Source of the DNA: Oscillospiraceae bacterium | Lineage (GTDB): Bacteria; Bacillota; Clostridia; Oscillospirales; Ruminococcaceae | DNA length: 64,000 bases | NCBI GenBank assembly: GCA_018110905.1 | Contig: JAGBAZ010000046.1 | Location: forward strand, 1-64,000 | Reading direction: 5' to 3' | Part shown: positions 1 through 12,248 of the stretch, one piece after another | Layout: each line of letters opens with the position of its first letter | Numbering within the stretch: position 1 is the first letter of the stretch | Notes under the pieces: generated by a model | The model's database searches: none | Seen by the model: the letters and a program-made list of their open reading frames with translations, nothing else | What the model was told of the DNA's origin: nothing | Made by a program: the position numbers and the translations under genes

Positions 1-264
1 GATAAGATAAAGATTTATATCTCCGCTTTCAGTAAAACTGGAAGGAATTGGCGCATCGTCAATGCAGATAAGGTTTGCCTTGCCCTTATCTTCAAGAGCC
101 GGAGGAAGTTCGGAAGCGTATCCCACATAAAGGCATGCTGGGAAAAAACTCGGCTGACCGGGTTTTATCATCTTATGGGTCTGGATATAAGTCGGCTCCT
201 TGACTTCGGCAACCGCTTTCGGTGAAAAGGAGCTTAGTTTTTCGAGTAGCTTATGTATTTCCAA
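1..264 (-). CDS. PucR-like transcriptional regulator, N-terminal part (truncated by window edge)
   Basis: Eighty-eight codons read without a stop to the window edge from a TTG at 264, which follows a GGAGGTG ribosome site by 6 bases. The product starts LEIHKLLEKLSSFSPKAVAE and contains PACLYVGYASELP and NLICIDDAPIP. This resembles the N-terminal sensory segment of Firmicute PucR-family activators, but the DNA-binding C-terminus lies outside, so the family is tentative. It is divergent from the acyl-carrier/butyrate-kinase operon and is separated from it by an 18-bp palindrome at 280-297, so it is the best local candidate for that operon's regulator. Confidence 0.5.
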   Translation of the reverse strand, partial: MEIHKLLEKLSSFSPKAVAEVKEPTYIQTHKMIKPGQPSFFPACLYVGYASELPPALEDKGKANLICIDDAPIPSSFTESGDINLYLI

Positions 265-279
265 AAAGAACACCTCCGT

Positions 280-297
280 TTTGTGAGCGCTCACAAA
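280..297. promoter_or_regulatory. Perfect 18-bp palindrome, probable operator
   Basis: TTTGTGAGCGCTCACAAA is perfectly self-complementary. It sits just upstream of the ribosome site of the leftward regulator and about 125 bases before the rightward acyl carrier gene. The core TTGTGAGCGCTCACAA equals the symmetric core of the ideal lac operator, which suggests a LacI-type or other dimeric repressor. No LacI gene is present in the window, so the binding protein is unknown. Confidence 0.6.
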
Positions 298-422: not shown

Positions 423-671
423 ATGACTGTACGTGAACAGGCTGTTGAAAAAATCATCGAAAGATGCTGTGTTCTTTTCGGCAAAAAACCCGAAGAAATC
501 AACGAGGATACCCGTTTTATCGAAGATCTTGGCGCAAGATCCGGAAATGTTTCCCAGATGACCAACTTCCTTGAAGATGAGTTTGACGTTGAAATTTCCT
601 TCATGCGCTTCCGTCGCTGCCCTACCATCGGACTTGCAGCAGATTACATCGAAGAGCTTTGTGAAGAATAA
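423..671 (+). CDS. Acyl carrier protein
   Basis: 82 residues, the usual ACP length, mostly acidic and predicted helical. The phosphopantetheine site is read as DLGARSGN at residues 35-42, with Ser40 as the attachment residue. The residue before the serine is Arg where housekeeping ACPs usually have Asp (DLGADS), which points to a specialised carrier rather than the fatty-acid synthesis one. An AGAGGAG ribosome site precedes the ATG at 423. It is the first gene of the operon, 52 bases before the CocE-like hydrolase. A holo-ACP synthase follows later and could load this carrier. No fatty acid synthesis gene is nearby. Confidence 0.85.
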   Translation: MTVREQAVEKIIERCCVLFGKKPEEINEDTRFIEDLGARSGNVSQMTNFLEDEFDVEISFMRFRRCPTIGLAADYIEELCEE

Positions 672-723
672 CATATAAAAGTATATTTATTCATTTCTTT
701 AATATTAAAAGGAGGATTTAATC

Positions 724-2496
724 ATGCCTATGCCCGGAATGCCCGAACCTATCAGATCCACCAAAATTGAAACCTTCAACGGCGTTGAAATGGAAACCAT
801 TTACCGCCAGGGTAAAACCCCCGTTGACCCCAGATCCGAAAACCGCGATGCAGGCGGTCCCGGAATGAACTCCATGGGAATGGGCGTTTGCCCCGACCTC
901 AACCCCAGAACTTATGAATGCGCACCCGGAATCATCTGCGAACAGGACGTTAAAGTTCCGCTCCGCGACGGCGTTAACATTTATATCGATATTTTCCGTC
1001 CGAAAGATAAAGTCGGTATCCCCGCAATCCTTTCCTGGAGCTTCTATGGAAAACGCCCCGGCGAAGGAATGAGCGAATGGCAGATCATGGGTGTTGCACC
1101 CGGAACTGTTTCCAAACTCACCAAATTCGAATCCACCGACCCTCTTTATTGGTGCTATAAAGACTACGCAATCATCAACATTGACCCTCGCGGCGTAGGC
1201 CATTCCGAAGGCGACGTTTGCTGCTTCGGAACTCAGGAAGCCCGTGACGGTTATGACGTAATCGAATGGCTTGCACAGCAGCCCTGGTGCAACGGCAAAA
1301 TCGGTATGGGCGGTAACTCCGCAGTTGCAATGAGCCAGTGGAGAATCGCTGCACAGCAGCCGCCGCACCTTGCATGTATCGCACCCTGGGAAGGAACTTC
1401 CGATATTTACCGTGAATCCATGTTCGAAGGCGGCGTTCCCGCAATCGCATTCAACGAATTCATCGTAAGCTCCATCACCAGCGAAAACAAAGTTGACGAC
1501 ATGGTCGCCATGGCAGAAAGATCTCCCCTTATGAACGCATATTGGGAAGACAAAATTCCGCAGTTCGAAAAAATCAAAATCCCGGTATATTGCACAGCCT
1601 GCTGGAACCACTTCCATCTCCGCGGAGCTTTCCAGGGCTTCAGAAAAATCAAATCCAAGAAAAAATGGATGAGAGCACACCGCGAATTTGAATGGCCGGA
1701 CGGCTATAACAAAGAGCATCTTGCAGAGCTTGAACTCTTCTTCGAGCGTTATCTCAAAGACGTACATAACTGCTGGGAATCCACCCCGAGAGTACGTCTT
1801 GAAGTTCAGGACGCACACGAATTCCTTTATGCAAAAGACCGTCCCGAACAGACCTTCCCGCTCAAACGCACTCAGTATAAGAAACTTTATCTCGATGCCG
1901 CAAACGGCGCACTTTCCTGGAACCCTGTTGAAACCGAAAGCAAAGTCAGCTATGACGGCAATACCGGCGTAACCAACTTCGATATCAAATTCACCAAAGA
2001 CGTTGAAATCACCGGCTATATGAAACTCCATATGTGGGTAACCGCAGAGGAATATAACGACGCCGATATGTTCATCAACATCCAGAAACTCGACACCAAA
2101 GGCGAATGGCTTCCCACCGACGTTCTCGGCGAACCTCATCCCGGCACCTGGGGCAAGATGAGAATTTCCCACCGCGCTCTTGACCCGGATAAATCCACCG
2201 ATTTCCAGCCCATCCAGAGCCATCTTAAAGAAGAAAAAATTCAGCCCGGCGAAGTTGTTCCGGTCGATGTTGAAATCGTTCCTTCCAGCCGCTTCTGGCA
2301 CAAAGGCCAGTCCCTCCGTATCCAGGTTGCAGGTCATTATATCCGCGAAGGCTGGTTCGAACCTCTCTTCTGGGATACCGACAACCACGGCGATACCTCC
2401 ATTTATACCGGCGGAAAATACGATTCTTATCTCCAGATTCCCGTTGTCCCGCCCAAATATGTTGACGGCGATATCGAATACGGCAGATTTGACTGA
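724..2496 (+). CDS. CocE/NonD-type alpha/beta hydrolase with X-Pro dipeptidyl-peptidase C-terminal domain
   Basis: 590 residues starting MPMPGMPEPI after AAAGGAGG. The N-terminal half is an alpha/beta hydrolase with the CocE hallmark DPRGVGHSEG at about 154-163 and nucleophile elbow GMGGNSAV with Ser199. The C-terminal half (about 380-590) is the jelly-roll S15/CocE domain. Family members cleave esters, amides or X-Pro peptides. The usual acid region reads ACWNHFHLRG here with no obvious Asp, so the triad should be checked against a structure. No signal peptide is evident, so it is probably cytoplasmic. Codon use is strongly biased to C-ending codons, as in highly expressed genes. Lying between an ACP gene and a holo-ACP synthase is unusual for this family. 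Confidence 0.8.
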   Translation: MPMPGMPEPIRSTKIETFNGVEMETIYRQGKTPVDPRSENRDAGGPGMNSMGMGVCPDLNPRTYECAPGIICEQDVKVPLRDGVNIYIDIFRPKDKVGIPAILSWSFYGKRPGEGMSEWQIMGVAPGTVSKLTKFESTDPLYWCYKDYAIINIDPRGVGHSEGDVCCFGTQEARDGYDVIEWLAQQPWCNGKIGMGGNSAVAMSQWRIAAQQPPHLACIAPWEGTSDIYRESMFEGGVPAIAFNEFIVSSITSENKVDDMVAMAERSPLMNAYWEDKIPQFEKIKIPVYCTACWNHFHLRGAFQGFRKIKSKKKWMRAHREFEWPDGYNKEHLAELELFFERYLKDVHNCWESTPRVRLEVQDAHEFLYAKDRPEQTFPLKRTQYKKLYLDAANGALSWNPVETESKVSYDGNTGVTNFDIKFTKDVEITGYMKLHMWVTAEEYNDADMFINIQKLDTKGEWLPTDVLGEPHPGTWGKMRISHRALDPDKSTDFQPIQSHLKEEKIQPGEVVPVDVEIVPSSRFWHKGQSLRIQVAGHYIREGWFEPLFWDTDNHGDTSIYTGGKYDSYLQIPVVPPKYVDGDIEYGRFD

Positions 2497-2514
2497 TAAA
2501 TCAGCATAAAAAGG

Positions 2515-2550
2515 TTTGAGCACGGCACGGACCGCTGTGCGGTGCTCAGA
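2515..2550 (+). other. Hairpin built from inverted TGAGCAC/GTGCTCA
   Basis: TGAGCAC at 2517-2523 is answered by GTGCTCA at 2542-2548, and an inner GCAC/GTGC stem lies between them. No T-run follows, so it is not a typical terminator. It may shape the transcript between the hydrolase and acpS genes. The word is the one repeated elsewhere in the window. Confidence 0.6.
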
Positions 2551-2574
2551 CAAAACATAATAATCCCCAACGAG

Positions 2575-2613
2575 AAGGGCAGCGGTCAAAAAAAACTGGC
2601 TGCTGCCCTTTTT
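2575..2613 (+). terminator. Intra-operon terminator or attenuator before acpS
   Basis: AAGGGCAGC at 2575-2583 pairs with GCTGCCCTT at 2602-2610, followed by a short T-run. The loop is long (18 bases). It lies 28 bases before the acpS start, so it may partly uncouple the last four genes from the first two. Confidence 0.55.
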
Positions 2614-2637
2614 GCACCCAAAAAACGAGGTGAAAAA

Positions 2638-3021
2638 ATGATTATCGGTATCGGAACGGATATTTTTGATGTAAAAAGGCTTTCGGAAACCGCAATTTCC
2701 GAAGGCGATCCCTTCCTTCTGCGTGCTTTTACGGAAAAGGAGCGTGCTCAGGGCGATGCTCAAAGCAGAAGACACGAATTTTTTGCAGGGCGCTTTTCCG
2801 CAAAAGAGGCGGTTTATAAATCTATAAGCGCCTGCAAAATTGAATTCCGCCCCGGAGAAATCGAAATTATTGATGACGAAAACGGAAAGCCGTGCTCAAA
2901 ACTCCTCGGCAAAACGAAGGAAGCTTTTGAAGCGGCTTTCGGAACGGATTACGTTATACATATTTCAATTTCTCACGAAACCGAAATCGTTTCCGCATTC
3001 GCGGTCACCGAAAAACTTTAA
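2638..3021 (+). CDS. acpS: Holo-[acyl-carrier-protein] synthase
   Basis: 127 residues, normal AcpS length. It contains the two family signatures: the metal-binding GIGTDIFDV near residue 4 and FAGRFSAKEAVYKS around residue 44. The enzyme transfers 4'-phosphopantetheine from CoA to the serine of an acyl carrier protein. The ATG at 2638 is chosen because GAGGTG precedes it by 4 bases; an upstream extension would run through the hairpins. It may be the only AcpS of the cell or a dedicated copy for the ACP at 423. The gene contains two copies of GTGCTCA in two different reading frames. Confidence 0.92.
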   Translation: MIIGIGTDIFDVKRLSETAISEGDPFLLRAFTEKERAQGDAQSRRHEFFAGRFSAKEAVYKSISACKIEFRPGEIEIIDDENGKPCSKLLGKTKEAFEAAFGTDYVIHISISHETEIVSAFAVTEKL

Positions 3022-3034
3022 GGAGGAAAACAAA

Positions 3035-4033
3035 ATGGATATAATGGAAAAAATTTATGAGCGTGCAAAAGCCGCTCCCCAGAGAGTTGCATTTCCGGAA
3101 GCAACCGAAGAAAAAATCCTTCTTGCCGCAAGAGAATGCGCCGATAAAGGCTACTGCGTTTCCGTTCTTGTCGGCAAAGAAGACGAAATCGTAAACGCCG
3201 CGGAAGAATTCGGCGTTTCCCTCGAAGGTATCACCGTTGTTGATGCTTTCAATGAAGAATGGCTTGAAAAACTTATCGCAAACTACTGTGAAAAATATCC
3301 CCTCAACAGCGCAAAAACCATGAAGCGCAAATCCAAAGATCCCATGTATACCGCCCTTATGATGCAGGCAACCGGAATGGTTGATGTAACCTTTGCGGGT
3401 CTTACCCATTCCACCGGCGATGTTATTATGGCAGGACAGATGGTAGTCGGCCTTCAGGAAGGCGTTTCCACCATTTCCAGCGTAGGTATTTTCAATATTC
3501 CCGGTTATGAAGGCAGCGAAGGCCAGCTTCTCGGCTTCGGCGACAGTGCAGTCTGCACAAACCCGGATGCTGACCAGCTTGCAAGCATTGCAATCGCCGC
3601 CTGCGATACCGTTCATTCCCTTGTTGAATGGGAACCCAGATGCGCGATGCTTTCCTATTCCACCTGCGGAAGCGGCGAAGGTCCCCTTGTTGACAAAGTT
3701 GTTGAAGCGGTAAAAATCGCAAACGAAAGAAGACCCGATCTTGCCATCGACGGCGAATTCCAGTTCGATTCCGCAATCAACCCCAAAGTTGCCGCAAAGA
3801 AAGTCAAAAAGGAAAGCAAAGTTGCCGGCAAGGCAAACATCGTAATCTGGCCCGACCTTAACGTTGGTAACGTCGGTGTAAAACTTGTTCAGCAGTTTGC
3901 ACACGCCGATGCATACGGTCCGATGCTTCAGGGCTTTGCAAAAATTGTCTGCGACTGCTCCAGAGGCGCACCTGTTTCCGAAATGGTCGGCAACATCGCC
4001 ATGAGCTGCGTAAGAGCACAGGGGGTAAAATAA
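3035..4033 (+). CDS. Phosphate acetyl/butyryltransferase family protein
   Basis: 332 residues preceded by AAGGAGGAAAACAAA and ATG at 3035. The sequence (VAFPEATEEKILLAA, THSTGDVIMAG, GKANIVIWPDLNVGNVG) is typical of the PF01515 phosphotransacylase fold. These enzymes convert acyl-CoA plus phosphate to acyl phosphate plus CoA. The directly following butyrate kinase family gene, one base after the stop, suggests a Ptb-Buk type pair that makes ATP, although the acyl group could be acetyl, propionyl, butyryl or branched. Codon bias is strong. Whether it also accepts acyl-ACP, as the operon suggests, is inference. Confidence 0.88.
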   Translation: MDIMEKIYERAKAAPQRVAFPEATEEKILLAARECADKGYCVSVLVGKEDEIVNAAEEFGVSLEGITVVDAFNEEWLEKLIANYCEKYPLNSAKTMKRKSKDPMYTALMMQATGMVDVTFAGLTHSTGDVIMAGQMVVGLQEGVSTISSVGIFNIPGYEGSEGQLLGFGDSAVCTNPDADQLASIAIAACDTVHSLVEWEPRCAMLSYSTCGSGEGPLVDKVVEAVKIANERRPDLAIDGEFQFDSAINPKVAAKKVKKESKVAGKANIVIWPDLNVGNVGVKLVQQFAHADAYGPMLQGFAKIVCDCSRGAPVSEMVGNIAMSCVRAQGVK

Positions 4034-4034
4034 G

Positions 4035-5135
4035 ATGAGCGAATACAAAATCCTTACCATAAACCCCGGTTCCACTTCCACAAAAATCGGTCTTTTTGAA
4101 GGCGAAAAATGCCTTTTTGCCGAAAACGTAGCACATGATGCCGCTGTTCTTAAAGAATACGCAACCATCAGCGACCAGCTCCCTTACAGAAGAGATACCA
4201 TCAACGAGCTTCTTGAAAAGAACAACATCGACCTTTCCGATGTTGACGCATTCGTAGGCAGAGGCGGCGGTCTTATGGCAATGGAAGGCGGCGTTTACGG
4301 CGTTGATGAAACCATTCTTGACCACGCAAGACGCGGCGCGAACGGAGTTCAGCATCCCGCAAACCTCGGAAGCCAGCTTGCAAACGAATTTGCCGCAAAA
4401 TTCGGCAAACCCGCGTTCGTAGTAAACCCTCCGGATACCGATGAACTCTGCGACCTTGCAAGAGTTACCGGCGTTAAAGGCGTTTACAGAAATGTACATC
4501 TCCACGCTCTTAACCTTAAAGAAACCGCAATCCGCCATGCGGCTTCCGAAGGCAAAAAATATGAGGACTGCAACTATATCGTCTGCCATATCGGCGGCGG
4601 AATTTCCGTTTCCGCACATCAGAAAGGCAAAATGATAGACGGCAACGATATCGTCGGCGGCGAAGGCCCAATGGCTCCCACCAGATGCGGCGCTGTTCCG
4701 GTTGCGGAACTTCTCCGCTATGCAAAAGACAAAGACCTTAAAGAAGTAAAATCCCTTTGCACCAGAACCGGCGGATTTGTTTCCCATCTCGGAACCGCCG
4801 ACGCAAGAGAAGTTACTGCTCTTGCCGCTTCCGGCAACAAAACCGCTGAAAGAGTATGGAACGCAATGATCTATCAGATCATCAAATACATCGGTTCCAT
4901 GGCAACCGTTCTTAAAGGCGAAGTTGACGGAATCCTTCTCGGCGGCGGAATGGTTCACAGCGAAGACCTTGTAAATCAGATCACCGAAGCCTGCAAATGG
5001 ATCGCTCCGGTCTATGCATATCCGGGCGAATTTGAACTCGAGGCAATGGCCGCCGGCGCGATTCGCGTTCTTTCCGGCGAAGAGGAAGCGAAAGTTTATA
5101 CCGGAAAACCCCGCTGGGCCGGTTTTGAGGATTAA
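4035..5135 (+). CDS. buk: Butyrate kinase family acyl kinase
   Basis: 366 residues of the acetate/butyrate kinase (ASKHA) family. Seen are the phosphate-1 loop ILTINPGSTSTKIGLF at residues 5-20, VGRGGGL, NVHLHALN, CHIGGGISVSAH and EVDGILLGGGMVH. The pattern and length match butyrate kinase better than acetate kinase (about 400 residues). It converts acyl phosphate plus ADP to acid plus ATP. The start is one base beyond the phosphotransacylase stop, so the two are translationally coupled. Substrate chain length is not readable from sequence; branched-chain acids are possible. Confidence 0.88.
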   Translation: MSEYKILTINPGSTSTKIGLFEGEKCLFAENVAHDAAVLKEYATISDQLPYRRDTINELLEKNNIDLSDVDAFVGRGGGLMAMEGGVYGVDETILDHARRGANGVQHPANLGSQLANEFAAKFGKPAFVVNPPDTDELCDLARVTGVKGVYRNVHLHALNLKETAIRHAASEGKKYEDCNYIVCHIGGGISVSAHQKGKMIDGNDIVGGEGPMAPTRCGAVPVAELLRYAKDKDLKEVKSLCTRTGGFVSHLGTADAREVTALAASGNKTAERVWNAMIYQIIKYIGSMATVLKGEVDGILLGGGMVHSEDLVNQITEACKWIAPVYAYPGEFELEAMAAGAIRVLSGEEEAKVYTGKPRWAGFED

Positions 5136-5138
5136 GCC

Positions 5139-6365
5139 ATGAGCCTTACAAAAAAACGCTGGATAATCCTTGCCGCTTCCTGCCTTATCAATCTTTGCAT
5201 CGGTTCCCTTTATGCTTGGAGCGTTTTTGCAACCCCCATGGCGGCATATCTTTCTTCCGTAACCGGAAGTGAGGTTGCGGGTCTTGCGATAATCTTCACT
5301 ATTGCCAACGCGGTCGGACCAATCACCATGATTTCCGGCGGATTCATCAACGATAAAATCGGCCCGAAATGGGTAATATTTATCGGGGGAATTCTTTTCG
5401 GTCTTGGAATGATTGCTTCCGGCTTTGCAAAAAGCGTTGGAATGCTTCTTCTGACCTATGGACTCGGAGTCGGACTCGGGGTAGGAATGGTTTACGGCTG
5501 CACAGTATCCAACTCCGTAAAATTCTTCCCGGATAAACGGGGACTTGTGGGTGGAATCGCCACCGCTTCCTACGGAATCAGTTCCGTAATTATCCCGATA
5601 GTTGCCAACGCACTTATTGATAATTTTGACGTCACAATGGCATTCAAAATCCTCGGCGCGGCAATGCTTGTTATAATCTGCGTTTCCGCTTTCTTTATAC
5701 AGACCTGCCCGAAAGATTTTAAACCGGAAGGCTGGAATCCTCCCGAACCGAAAGCAGGAGCAAAAGCTCCGGTCGATAAGGACTGGAAGGCGATGCTTAA
5801 AGACCCGATTTTCTATGTGATGATTCTCATGCTCTGCTGCGGAGCTTTTTCCGGACTTATGGTAACTTCCCAGGCTTCTCCCGTTGCACAGAACATGATA
5901 GGAATGACCGCCGCGGAAGCAGCGGTTGCGGTTTCCGTCCTTGCAATGTTCAACACTCTCGGAAGAATCCTTGCGGGATTCATCTCCGATAAAATCGGCT
6001 CCGTCAACACAATTCTCGGAGTATTCCTTGTTTCCGTTCTCGGTCTTGGTCTTCTGTTTATTTCCGGCGAAGGAAGCGTTGCGACTTTCTATATCGGAGT
6101 CTGCATAGTCGGTCTTTGCTTCGGTTCCATTATGGGGATTTATCCCGGATTCACCGCTTCCCAGTTCGGCGCAAGAAATAACAGCGTCAACTACGGAATC
6201 ATGTTCATCGGTTTTGCCGCGGCGGGTTATTTCGGACCCACCATTATGAGCAAAATCTATGCTTCCGCCGGCGCTTATCAGACCGCATTCCTTGCGGCAA
6301 TGGCTCTTGCGATTGCCGGTGCCGTTCTTACTTTTGCTTTCAGAAAGCTTTCAAAAAAAGCCTGA
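5139..6365 (+). CDS. OFA-family MFS transporter (oxalate/formate antiporter-like)
   Basis: 408 residues with about 12 hydrophobic segments. It starts KKRWIILAASCLINLCIGSLYAWSVFA, a characteristic OFA first helix (shown by its key W, L, Y, A, W, S, V, F residues), and has the GGFINDKIGPK-type loop between helices 2 and 3. OFA members exchange small mono- and dicarboxylates across the membrane. It is the last gene of the operon, 3 bases after the kinase, so it plausibly exports the acid product or imports the acid substrate. Codon bias matches the upstream genes. Confidence 0.85.
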   Translation: MSLTKKRWIILAASCLINLCIGSLYAWSVFATPMAAYLSSVTGSEVAGLAIIFTIANAVGPITMISGGFINDKIGPKWVIFIGGILFGLGMIASGFAKSVGMLLLTYGLGVGLGVGMVYGCTVSNSVKFFPDKRGLVGGIATASYGISSVIIPIVANALIDNFDVTMAFKILGAAMLVIICVSAFFIQTCPKDFKPEGWNPPEPKAGAKAPVDKDWKAMLKDPIFYVMILMLCCGAFSGLMVTSQASPVAQNMIGMTAAEAAVAVSVLAMFNTLGRILAGFISDKIGSVNTILGVFLVSVLGLGLLFISGEGSVATFYIGVCIVGLCFGSIMGIYPGFTASQFGARNNSVNYGIMFIGFAAAGYFGPTIMSKIYASAGAYQTAFLAAMALAIAGAVLTFAFRKLSKKA

Positions 6366-6445: not shown

Positions 6446-7243
6446 ATGTATTCCGAGGGAATTTTTGAAATAAACGGCGCTTTGCTTTTCTGCAAAATCC
6501 GCGGAAAGGGAAAACCGATTTTGTTTATTCACGGAGCGGCTGTTGATTCGGATTTTTTTGATGAAACCGCGGAAATCCTTGCAAGTAACCATAAAGTCAT
6601 AACCTACGACCGCCGGGGTTATTCCAGAAGTTTCGGAGAAATCAAAAACGGCTTCCTTGAAGATTCTGCGGATGATGCGGCGGAAATTATCCGCAGGTTT
6701 TCACCGGAAGAACCGGTAACGGCTATCGGATGCAGCGCCGGCGCGCTTATCGCAATGTGCCTTGCGAGCAAATATCCGGAGCTTGTTTCCCTTGCGATAA
6801 TCCACGAACCGCCGACCATGGCTTTTCTTCCGGAAAACCACGAAGCTTTTGAAATTGCGGATAAGATAAACGCTTTTGTTGCGGCAGGAAAAATCGGCAG
6901 AGGAGCAACAAAATTTTTGCTTCTCCTGGATAACGGCGACGAAAACGCAAAGCCGAAATCCGAAGAAGTGATGCTTCGGGAAGAGGAAAATATGCGTTTT
7001 TTCATCAAAAACGAATTTGCAGAAACTTTTACGAAAGAGCTTCCGCCGGAAATTCCGAAAAATGTTAAAGCCGTTTTCTGCGCAGGAGACGCACACCGGG
7101 AAGATTTTATTTATAAAACAACTCAGATGCTCGCGGAAAATTCATCGTTCCCTTTTATCCGCATCGCCGGAAAACACAACTGTGCCTATGATTTGCCGAT
7201 GGAATTTGCGTCGGCGATGGAAGGGATAATTTCTGTAATGTGA
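6446..7243 (+). CDS. Alpha/beta fold hydrolase
   Basis: 265 residues with the alpha/beta hydrolase core: HGAAVDSDFF (oxyanion region), YDRRGYSRS, nucleophile elbow AIGCSAGA (Ser near residue 98) and a C-terminal GKHNCAYD carrying the likely catalytic His. ATG 6446 follows GGAGGG by 5 bases. Substrate is unknown. It lies 80 bases after the transporter, beyond a hairpin, so it may be in the same operon or separate. Its codons are less biased than those of the upstream genes. It ends at a strong terminator made from the repeated GTGCTCA word. Confidence 0.8.
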   Translation: MYSEGIFEINGALLFCKIRGKGKPILFIHGAAVDSDFFDETAEILASNHKVITYDRRGYSRSFGEIKNGFLEDSADDAAEIIRRFSPEEPVTAIGCSAGALIAMCLASKYPELVSLAIIHEPPTMAFLPENHEAFEIADKINAFVAAGKIGRGATKFLLLLDNGDENAKPKSEEVMLREEENMRFFIKNEFAETFTKELPPEIPKNVKAVFCAGDAHREDFIYKTTQMLAENSSFPFIRIAGKHNCAYDLPMEFASAMEGIISVM

Positions 7244-10718: not shown

Positions 10719-11477
10719 ATGGATAGAGTTAAAGAAAAAGTTGCAATCGTAACCGGAGCAGGCAGTGGCCTTGGAAGAGCAGAAGCAGTTATGCTTGCAA
10801 AAGAAGGCGCAAAAGTTGCAGTAACCGATATCAACGATGCTTCCGGTATGGAAACCGTTGAAATCATCAGAAACGCCGGCGGCGAAGCAGAATACTGGCA
10901 TCTTGATGCATCCGAAGAAAAAGAATGCAAAGCAGTTATCGACGCTGTTGCAGAAAAATTCGGTAAAATTGATATTCTTGTAAACAATGCAGGTATCACC
11001 GGTCCCGATGTTACCACCGAGGAAATTACCGAGGAAGATTGGGACAGAATGTTCAAAATCAACGTAAAAAGCGTTCTTTTCATGACCAAACACACCATTC
11101 CCTATATGCGTAAAAACGGAAAAGGTTCCATCGTCAATACCTCTTCTCTCTCCGGTATCATCGGCGACACCGAACTTACTCCCTATCACGCAACCAAAGG
11201 TACCATTGTTATTATGTCCCAGAAAGACGCAGTACAGTATGCTCCCGAGCATATCCGCGTAAACTGCATCTGCCCCGGAACAGTTATGACTCCCCTTGTT
11301 CAGGGACTTCTTGATGATGACCCCCACTATCTTGATAACGATATCAAGAGATATCCTATCGGCTATTTCGGCGAACCGGATGACGTTGCATACGCTGTTC
11401 TCTTCCTTGCTTCTGACGAAGGCCGCTTTGTAACCGGCACCAAACTTGTTATCGACGGCGGTTATTCCGCTCAGTAA
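10719..11477 (+). CDS. Short-chain dehydrogenase/reductase (glucose 1-dehydrogenase-like), copy 1
   Basis: 252 residues, classical SDR. The cofactor motif TGAGSGLG (TGxxxGxG) lies near residue 14, NNAG near 88, and the active-site Ser (NTSSLSG) and YHATK (YxxxK) follow. Asp in VTDIND near residue 37-40 suggests NAD preference. AAAGGAG precedes the ATG. It oxidises or reduces a sugar or polyol-like substrate. The next gene is a close paralogue, about two thirds or more identical by eye, 12 bases away. The pairing with a GlcU-like transporter suggests a sugar substrate. Confidence 0.85.
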   Translation: MDRVKEKVAIVTGAGSGLGRAEAVMLAKEGAKVAVTDINDASGMETVEIIRNAGGEAEYWHLDASEEKECKAVIDAVAEKFGKIDILVNNAGITGPDVTTEEITEEDWDRMFKINVKSVLFMTKHTIPYMRKNGKGSIVNTSSLSGIIGDTELTPYHATKGTIVIMSQKDAVQYAPEHIRVNCICPGTVMTPLVQGLLDDDPHYLDNDIKRYPIGYFGEPDDVAYAVLFLASDEGRFVTGTKLVIDGGYSAQ

Positions 11478-11489
11478 AGGAGCAGAAAC

Positions 11490-12248
11490 ATGGACAGAGT
11501 TAAAGACAAAGTTGCCATTGTAACCGGCGCTGCTCTTGGCCTTGGAAGAGGCGAAGCAATCCTTCTCGGAAAAGAAGGCGCAAAAGTTGCCGTTGTTGAT
11601 ATCAATGATGAGGCAGGAAAAGAAACCGTTGAAATCATCAGAAATGCAGGCGGCGAAGCGGAATACTGGCATCTTAACGTTGCAAACGAAGCTGAATGCA
11701 AAACCGTTATTGACTCGGTCGTTGAAAAATGGGGCAAACTCGATATTCTTGTGAACAACGCAGGAATTGTCGGCGAAGATGTTCCCACCGATAAAACCAC
11801 CGAGGAAAACTGGGATAAAGTTTTTGCCGTAAACGTAAAGAGCACTTTCTTTATGACAAAACATTCCATTCCTCATATGCGCAACAACGGAAAAGGCGCA
11901 ATCGTAAACACTTCTTCCATCTGCGGACTTGTTGGCGACGGCGAACTTTCTTCATATCATGCAACCAAAGGCGCGATTCTTCAGATGACAAAACAGGATG
12001 CGGTACAATATGCGCCGGAACACATTCGCGTAAACTGCGTATGTCCCGGTTCAATCATGACTCCTCTTATGCATGACCGCCTCAAAGTTGATCCTCAGTA
12101 TTTTGAAAAGGATCTTCAGAGATATCCTCTCGGATATTTCGGCGAACCGGAAGACGTTGCATACGGCGTTCTTTTCCTTGCTTCTGATGAAGGAAGATTT
12201 GTAACCGGTGCCGCACTTCCTATTGACGGCGGATATACCGCACAATAA
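11490..12248 (+). CDS. Short-chain dehydrogenase/reductase, copy 2
   Basis: 252 residues, same length as the preceding paralogue and starting with the same MDRVK-KVAIVTGA pattern. It keeps TGAALGLG, NNAG, NTSSICG and YHATK. It most differs in the substrate loop after the active site (SIMTPLMHDRLKVD versus TVMTPLVQGLLDDD). A recent tandem duplication with divergence of the substrate loop is the simplest reading. The two may form a mixed tetramer or act on two sugars or two epimers. Confidence 0.85.
   Translation: MDRVKDKVAIVTGAALGLGRGEAILLGKEGAKVAVVDINDEAGKETVEIIRNAGGEAEYWHLNVANEAECKTVIDSVVEKWGKLDILVNNAGIVGEDVPTDKTTEENWDKVFAVNVKSTFFMTKHSIPHMRNNGKGAIVNTSSICGLVGDGELSSYHATKGAILQMTKQDAVQYAPEHIRVNCVCPGSIMTPLMHDRLKVDPQYFEKDLQRYPLGYFGEPEDVAYGVLFLASDEGRFVTGAALPIDGGYTAQ

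Follow-up and report, generated by a model that had tools for sequence, protein, structure and literature searches.

Why should a single bacterial operon join a hydrolase and a dedicated acyl carrier protein (ACP) to enzymes that turn an acyl group into an acyl phosphate and then into ATP? The question is raised by six genes at positions 423-6365 (plus strand) of the window, the 64,000-nucleotide stretch analysed here, which forms the start of contig C30 in the 2.07 Mb genome of an Oscillospiraceae bacterium. The operon encodes an ACP, a CocE/NonD family hydrolase, an AcpS-type phosphopantetheinyl transferase (PPTase), a phosphotransacylase (PTA), a butyrate kinase family enzyme and a transporter of the major facilitator superfamily (MFS); family scans recover all six in one direction, just as the initial annotation had read them. 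On balance, comparison of sequences suggests that the operon is probably a self-contained unit of catabolism, able to conserve acyl-bond energy with no need of coenzyme A (CoA). More tentatively, it may represent an ACP-based form of substrate-level phosphorylation in which an interchangeable acyl-cleaving enzyme acts on plant polyphenols and, with a specialised PTA and kinase, avoids the hydrolytic energy loss of flavonoid breakdown. The features of the locus are as follows.

1-294, minus strand: 5' portion of the gene for a divergent PucR-type regulator, the remainder of which lies on another contig
280-297, no strand: TTTGTGAGCGCTCACAAA, a perfect 18-bp palindrome and likely operator, between the regulator and ACP genes
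423-671, plus strand: dedicated ACP of 82 aa (PF00550, 7.7e-08)
724-2496, plus strand: CocE/NonD (S15) family acyl hydrolase, the proposed acyl-cleaving front end (TIGR00976, 205.6 bits against a cut-off of 66.3; PF02129 and PF08530)
2514-2614, plus strand: two strong RNA hairpins, from fold energy, in the gap between the hydrolase and AcpS genes
2638-3021, plus strand: AcpS-type PPTase (PF01648, 1.2e-13)
3035-4033, plus strand: Pta-class PTA (PF01515, 4.1e-91)
4035-5135, plus strand: butyrate kinase family acyl kinase (TIGR02707, 395.9 bits against a cut-off of 289.1)
5139-6365, plus strand: MFS transporter of the lactate/monocarboxylate type, related to oxalate/formate antiporters (OFA) (NF049980, 435.2 bits against a cut-off of 320)
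6446-7243, plus strand: alpha/beta hydrolase 3' of the operon (PF00561, 2e-15)

In the route that we propose, the CocE-type enzyme would cleave an activated acyl compound, releasing a leaving group and retaining the acyl group on its serine; the acyl group would then be taken over by the dedicated ACP, on the thiol of the phosphopantetheine with which the operon's own AcpS would load it. The PTA would convert acyl-S-ACP and inorganic phosphate into an acyl phosphate, from which the butyrate-kinase-type enzyme would form ATP and the free acid, and the acid would leave the cell through the lactate/monocarboxylate-type MFS carrier. We infer the catalytic steps, the direction of flux, the class of substrate, the transfer to ACP and the binding of the regulator alike.

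The gene set has been kept together across large evolutionary distances. In a one-time scan of genome contigs, complemented by searches centred on relatives, an ACP gene lies beside the hydrolase gene at 19 loci, with the genus of the window counted once; the 18 outside the genus fall in three phyla, Bacillota, Actinomycetota and Chloroflexota, and belong to Oscillospiraceae, Erysipelotrichaceae, Lachnospiraceae, other Clostridia, Slackia equolifaciens (Actinomycetota) and one Dehalococcoidia bacterium (Chloroflexota). The PTA gene adjoins in all of the 19 except L022, and the kinase gene in all except L074. AcpS and the MFS carrier often accompany the set without being universal, and a PucR regulator in divergent orientation is likewise common. 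The co-occurrence that the initial annotation proposed to look for was found. The order, whose loss in relatives would by the initial annotation speak against its scheme, is conserved only in part: the genes run AcpS-PTA-kinase-ACP-hydrolase in the Dehalococcoidia locus (L021), and ACP stands apart from the hydrolase in L073. Ratios of non-synonymous to synonymous substitution (dN/dS) of the coding genes are 0.00-0.11, a sign of strong purifying selection, which together with conservation over three phyla excludes a chance association.

Whether the acyl group travels on ACP or on CoA turns mainly on the PTA. The enzyme belongs to the PTA_PTB fold family (closest structures 1vmi and 1qzt, 3e-61 and 1.4e-59) and lies nearer to phosphate acetyltransferase than to phosphate butyryltransferase models, while falling under all curated cut-offs (TIGR00651, 265.9 bits against 311; PRK09653, 281.4 against 310; phosphate butyryltransferase models, 80-83 bits, with TIGR02706 at 80 against 410.5). 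In Pta of P. gingivalis and M. thermophila, Arg87 and Arg133 contact CoA with a moderate effect on Km or activity, and the Ser/Arg pair of site 1 is catalytic (PMC6461089). Aligned to the M. thermophila enzyme (MtPta), the window PTA keeps Ser309-Arg310; Arg133 has given way to Met132, and the segment with Arg87 is missing. The same holds throughout the operon-type PTAs examined: all keep Asp-x-Ser-Arg, and all have lost the Arg87 motif and the Arg133 equivalent, where M, L, I, F or another residue other than Arg is found; housekeeping Ptas of the same genomes, in contrast, retain Arg133 in nine of ten. The loss of CoA-contacting arginines favours a route from ACP to phosphate over one through CoA. 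The operon PTA is moreover the sole PTA or phosphate butyryltransferase (Ptb) of the window genome, and neither was found in two congeners without the operon. The kinase is closest among solved structures to 1x9j/1saz. A standard butyrate branch was considered and set aside: the PTA is not Ptb-like (80 against 410 bits) and the conserved core has no CoA-generating genes.

A natural swap of the front end points the same way. When the same genomes were searched for further operon-type PTAs, two loci (L151:6607-10888 and L153:8426-12566) came to light in which a thiolase and a ChsH2/DUF35 zinc-ribbon protein stand beside kinase, ACP and PTA genes, and at which there is no CocE-type enzyme. Their kinases share 69-71% identity and their PTAs 62% with the window proteins; the thiolase-like protein is kin to PhlC and to the benzoylsuccinyl-CoA thiolase subunit BbsB, the DUF35 protein to PhlB. 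The thiolase has Cys residues in a SEACCTGY motif, of which one may be the nucleophile. A constant ACP-PTA-kinase set with two alternative acyl-cleaving enzymes is what is expected if the cleaving enzyme hands its acyl group to ACP, and this replacement, too, favours transfer from ACP to phosphate over transfer through CoA.

The carrier itself is distinctive. In 17 operon ACPs the attachment serine (Ser40) is invariant, is always directly preceded by Lys or Arg, and is followed downstream by a conserved stretch of the type FM-x-F-[RK]-[RK]. Housekeeping ACPs of the genus read DSLD at this site, as against ARSGN in the window operon ACP, with [K/R]-S in place of D-S-L; against the AcpP model of fatty acid synthesis (FAS), TIGR00517, the window ACP scores 40.7 bits, below the cut-off of 70.45, and does not match the DSL motif. 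A second, FAS-type ACP is encoded elsewhere in the genome (G000:C44). The AcpS carries the motifs GTDIFDVKRL and FSAKEAVYK; its true start is at 2638 (127 aa), within a 159-aa open reading frame that begins further upstream. With it, the window genome has two PPTases, versus one in each of two congeners that lack the operon.

The hydrolase is closest among solved structures to 3ib3, itself annotated merely as a CocE/NonD family hydrolase. Its invariant residues are N198-S199, H296-F-H298 and H319. The Ser (GNSxVAM) and His (RAHREFEW) of the triad are retained, and the position of the presumed Asp is occupied by Asn or Ser (W-[NS]-HFH) throughout the subfamily; in CocE/NonD hydrolases at large the triad is Ser-His-Asp, with the Asp in a GWYD-type motif. 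Identification as a phloretin/2,4-diacetylphloroglucinol (DAPG) hydrolase was rejected, PF18089 being absent from the Pfam matches of the operon proteins. When 46 hydrolases are placed on a tree, those linked to an ACP group together, with 3 label changes versus 14.5 when labels are shuffled, and phyla are intermixed, which points to horizontal transfer. Relatives without the ACP set occur in Eggerthellaceae and some Lachnospiraceae (53-58% identity), and more distant ones in Proteobacteria. Several of these have neighbours worth recording. In Gordonibacter and Eggerthellaceae (L028-L030), a small membrane protein that looks like a DUF1097 protein stands before the ACP-less hydrolases; ACP-less homologues in Coriobacteriaceae/Eggerthellaceae (L025, L027) lie about 10 kb or less from molybdopterin oxidoreductases that, by eye, resemble polyphenol dehydroxylases; and in Alcaligenaceae (Pigmentiphaga and a relative; L033, L034) two CocE-type homologues are adjacent, in a cluster that includes genes like those of monooxygenases dependent on flavin adenine dinucleotide.

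As to the substrate, about 13 of the 18 loci outside the genus have genes for the catabolism of aromatics or glycosides in their vicinity. A C-glycoside deglycosidase beta subunit (PF19906) is encoded in L020, with relatives at the level of BLAST in L073 and L150. Flavin ene-reductase-type enzymes are found near the module in L018-L022, L070, L071, L073-L075, L150 and L152: flavoenzymes like BaiCD or 2-naphthoyl-CoA reductase in L021, L074 and L075, and fumarate-reductase-like flavoproteins, nearest to vinylphenol reductase and mostly accompanied by a NuoG-like partner, in L018, L019/L086, L020/L087, L070, L073, L150 and L152. Flavin mononucleotide reductases are also among the neighbours. L021 further holds a cluster of the phloroglucinol type, comprising a triacetate-cleaving enzyme (NF053538-like, 409 of 430 bits), a cyclase, a HAD protein and a short-chain dehydrogenase/reductase (SDR), that matches the phloroglucinol pathway of C. 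scatologenes (PMC10470551). These neighbours point to an aromatic (polyphenol) acyl compound as the probable substrate, whether a C-acyl phenol (a dihydrochalcone, for example), a phenol ester or a lactone; they speak against the peptide-like substrate entertained in the initial annotation. A substrate of this kind is favoured on energetic grounds as well, since its cleavage would be as exergonic as that of a thioester. The phloretin-hydrolase family occurs in 2 of 17 operon genomes, the window genome not among them; its absence from the other 15 is compatible with the module acting in its place, and is not decisive.

The transporter had been read as an OFA-type carboxylate antiporter. That it is an OFA-related monocarboxylate carrier stands, whereas the antiporter assignment does not: it misses the OFA cut-offs (TIGR00890, 245.1 bits against 374.85; TIGR04259, 179.7 against 335) and passes the model for L-lactate MFS transporters (NF049980, 435 against 320). 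An oxalate/formate system was accordingly rejected, there being also no oxalate-metabolism gene recognised beside the operon at the loci inspected by eye; a test for AbgT-type transport found none. The suggestion that the substrate enters through this transporter is not borne out, since the protein is lactate-like and missing from many loci. At L020 (13932-14474), L017, L070 and L153 the module has beside it a DUF1097 membrane protein, about 180 aa long, which is possibly a transport component.

The regulator fragment in the window shares 95% identity over 98 aa with its full-length counterpart in L010, where the domains PF13556 (HTH_30) and PF17853 (GGDEF_2) are present, and a regulator occupies the equivalent position at 13 of 19 related loci. 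The palindrome at 280-297 is the sole match to TTTGTGAGCGCTCACAAA in the window at up to two mismatches (expected, 0); it occurs in one copy in each operon-bearing genome of the genus among those searched, and in neither of two operon-less genomes of the genus searched. Its core, TTGTG-N6-CACAA, also lies upstream in L013 (Angelakisella), L015 (Erysipelotrichaceae; TTTGTGAGATCTCACAAA), L017 and L020 (both Lachnospiraceae; TTGTGCGTTCGCACAA), L151 and L153, and was looked for and not found at L014, L070 and L071. A seeming second operator copy in the window's own genome proved to be a contig end (G000:C39:32579-32945, the end of L149) that matches the first part of the window at 94.8% identity over 368 bp and carries the same regulator, there whole; this end is a strain variant within the assembly or a second copy, probably the former. 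The PucR-type regulator and the palindrome probably act as a switch by which the operon responds to its substrate, and they belong to the system beyond the six genes.

Between the hydrolase and AcpS genes, a gap of about 140 bp (2497-2640) folds at -62.9 kcal/mol (z -8.33) into hairpins at 2514-2551 and 2571-2614, the second ending in a U-run; a scan for consensus terminators did not list them. They may be a partial terminator or a processing site, giving differential expression within the operon, so that ACP and hydrolase may be expressed above the remaining genes. Strong codon bias, which the initial annotation ascribed to the whole operon, marks the genes for ACP, hydrolase, PTA and kinase, with effective codon numbers of 32-33, and does not extend to AcpS (51.5); this agrees with metabolic components that are highly expressed and a loading enzyme for which there is little need.

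Several observations weigh against the proposed route. L022 has no PTA gene within the stretch examined, and a few hydrolases of the ACP-linked clade (L024, L072) are without a detected ACP. The AlphaFold model of the hydrolase (predicted local distance difference test score, pLDDT, 49) was too poor and was not used. The PTA and kinase reactions are reversible. The housekeeping Pta of Slackia, the tenth of those compared, has His at the Arg133 position, and the Pta homologue 1vmi likewise lacks the Arg87 segment. In MtPta, Arg87 and Arg133 are part of a lower-affinity CoA site 2 and are not essential (PMC6461089); with a weaker site and dispensable arginines, the preference of the operon PTA for ACP is a prediction from sequence and no proof. 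The count of loci with aromatic or glycoside neighbours is a raw one. There are no polyphenol genes beside the operon in the genus of the window or in Slackia, so that for these the class of substrate is taken over from relatives. A general tie to a full phloroglucinol pathway was considered and dropped, a TAL-like enzyme near the NCBIfam model being found in only 1 of 25 genomes, that of the Dehalococcoidia bacterium.

A serious rival, if in our estimate an unlikely one, is that flux runs the other way: the MFS carrier would import an acid, kinase and PTA would spend ATP to load ACP, and the CocE-type enzyme, as an acyltransferase, would acylate an acceptor in detoxification or conjugation. 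Every step is reversible, the transporter matches lactate/monocarboxylate carriers, and a kinase, a phosphate acyltransferase and ACP are the established layout of exogenous fatty acid activation (FakAB and PlsX). Such a scheme is hard to square, however, with the degradative neighbours of many relatives (C-deglycosidases, ene-reductase-type flavoproteins, the phloroglucinol pathway), with a thiolase/DUF35 front end whose kin form or cleave C-C bonds, with the lack of a conserved acceptor-supplying gene, and with codon usage suggesting high expression, which is more usual in catabolism.

Quite unlikely, in our view, is that PTA and kinase use ordinary acyl-CoA in a fermentative acid branch and that ACP, AcpS and hydrolase serve a separate purpose. 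The families of the two enzymes would allow it, Ptb-Buk and Pta-Ack being the standard fermentative pairs, as would the dispensability of Arg87 and Arg133 for catalysis in MtPta; yet the conserved core has no CoA-transferase, CoA ligase or thiolase, ACP and PTA remain together where the hydrolase is replaced, and the operon PTAs as a class have lost the CoA-contact arginines that housekeeping Ptas, one excepted, have kept. We regard as very improbable that the hydrolase is simply an esterase or peptidase, secreted or cytosolic, with a small biosynthetic or signalling role for ACP (for example, acylation of a metabolite) and no conservation of energy: its broad similarity to the CocE/NonD and X-Pro peptidase families and its ACP-less homologues in Eggerthellaceae and Proteobacteria would suit this, but kinase and PTA are conserved as much as ACP, and the core contains no biosynthetic enzymes (ketosynthase, acyltransferase, adenylation). 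The passage of an acyl group through ACP and phosphate to ATP, sketched in the initial annotation, agrees with how the genes are conserved, with the arginines lost from the PTA and with the exchange of hydrolase for thiolase, while its direction and its dependence on ACP stay predictions.

Known systems each share a part of the proposed ATP-forming route. Ptb-Buk and Pta-Ack likewise move an acyl group to phosphate and then form ATP with an ASKHA acyl kinase, the operon kinase being in the butyrate-kinase family; the operon differs in its dedicated ACP and AcpS, in a PTA without CoA-contact arginines and in the proposed source of the acyl group, a hydrolase or thiolase and not acyl-CoA. FakAB-PlsX also combines a kinase, a phosphate acyltransferase and an ACP that exchange acyl phosphate and acyl-ACP, but the operon has other enzyme families (Pta-type, butyrate kinase), an extra acyl-cleaving enzyme, a catabolic context and the opposite proposed direction. 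Phloretin hydrolase, of the DAPG hydrolase family, cleaves a C-acyl phenol to an arylpropionic acid, as the operon hydrolase may do; it belongs to an unrelated family and frees the acid hydrolytically, with no ATP. Pairs of the PhlACB and benzoylsuccinyl-CoA thiolase type resemble the thiolase and DUF35 front end of L151 and L153; their known members take CoA or small acyl donors, whereas these loci encode an adjoining ACP and the window has a CocE-type enzyme. Citrate lyase and malonate decarboxylase, like the operon, dedicate a small carrier protein to a catabolic cleavage; they use a group derived from dephospho-CoA and no acyl phosphate, in contrast to the ordinary AcpS and PTA/kinase pair found here. 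The initial annotation knew of no pathway with these six parts, and we too found no description of the combination, nor anything matching ACP with butyrate kinase, CocE/NonD or polyphenol cleavage, in the open-access literature, subscription journals not being covered.

Within the genus the system is shared as a cassette. Of 15 genus members 6 have the hydrolase; it is absent from all other genera of the family that were sampled. The cassette spans about 8.7 kb (L010), from the regulator to the alpha/beta hydrolase at 6446-7243, with 94-95% DNA identity; its flanks differ between genomes and in some carry serine recombinases, a relaxase, or HipA- or Fic-like genes, as named by eye. The alpha/beta hydrolase is co-conserved in L010, L011, L012 and L016 only and was not found at loci of other lineages. 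Elsewhere in the window, at 10719-12248, two tandem SDR genes stand behind an EamA-like transporter gene, the first of them strongly codon-biased (effective codon number 32.1).

Should the proposed route be correct, anaerobes would gain ATP from the breaking of one acyl bond of a plant compound, with ACP keeping the acyl group activated; this would account for the benefit that gut bacteria derive from polyphenols with no apparent energy yield. Substrate-level phosphorylation would then have an additional, ACP-based branch, a group of CocE/NonD proteins without assignment would receive a function, and the gene set would serve as a marker of the trait in gut genomes from herbivores and humans.

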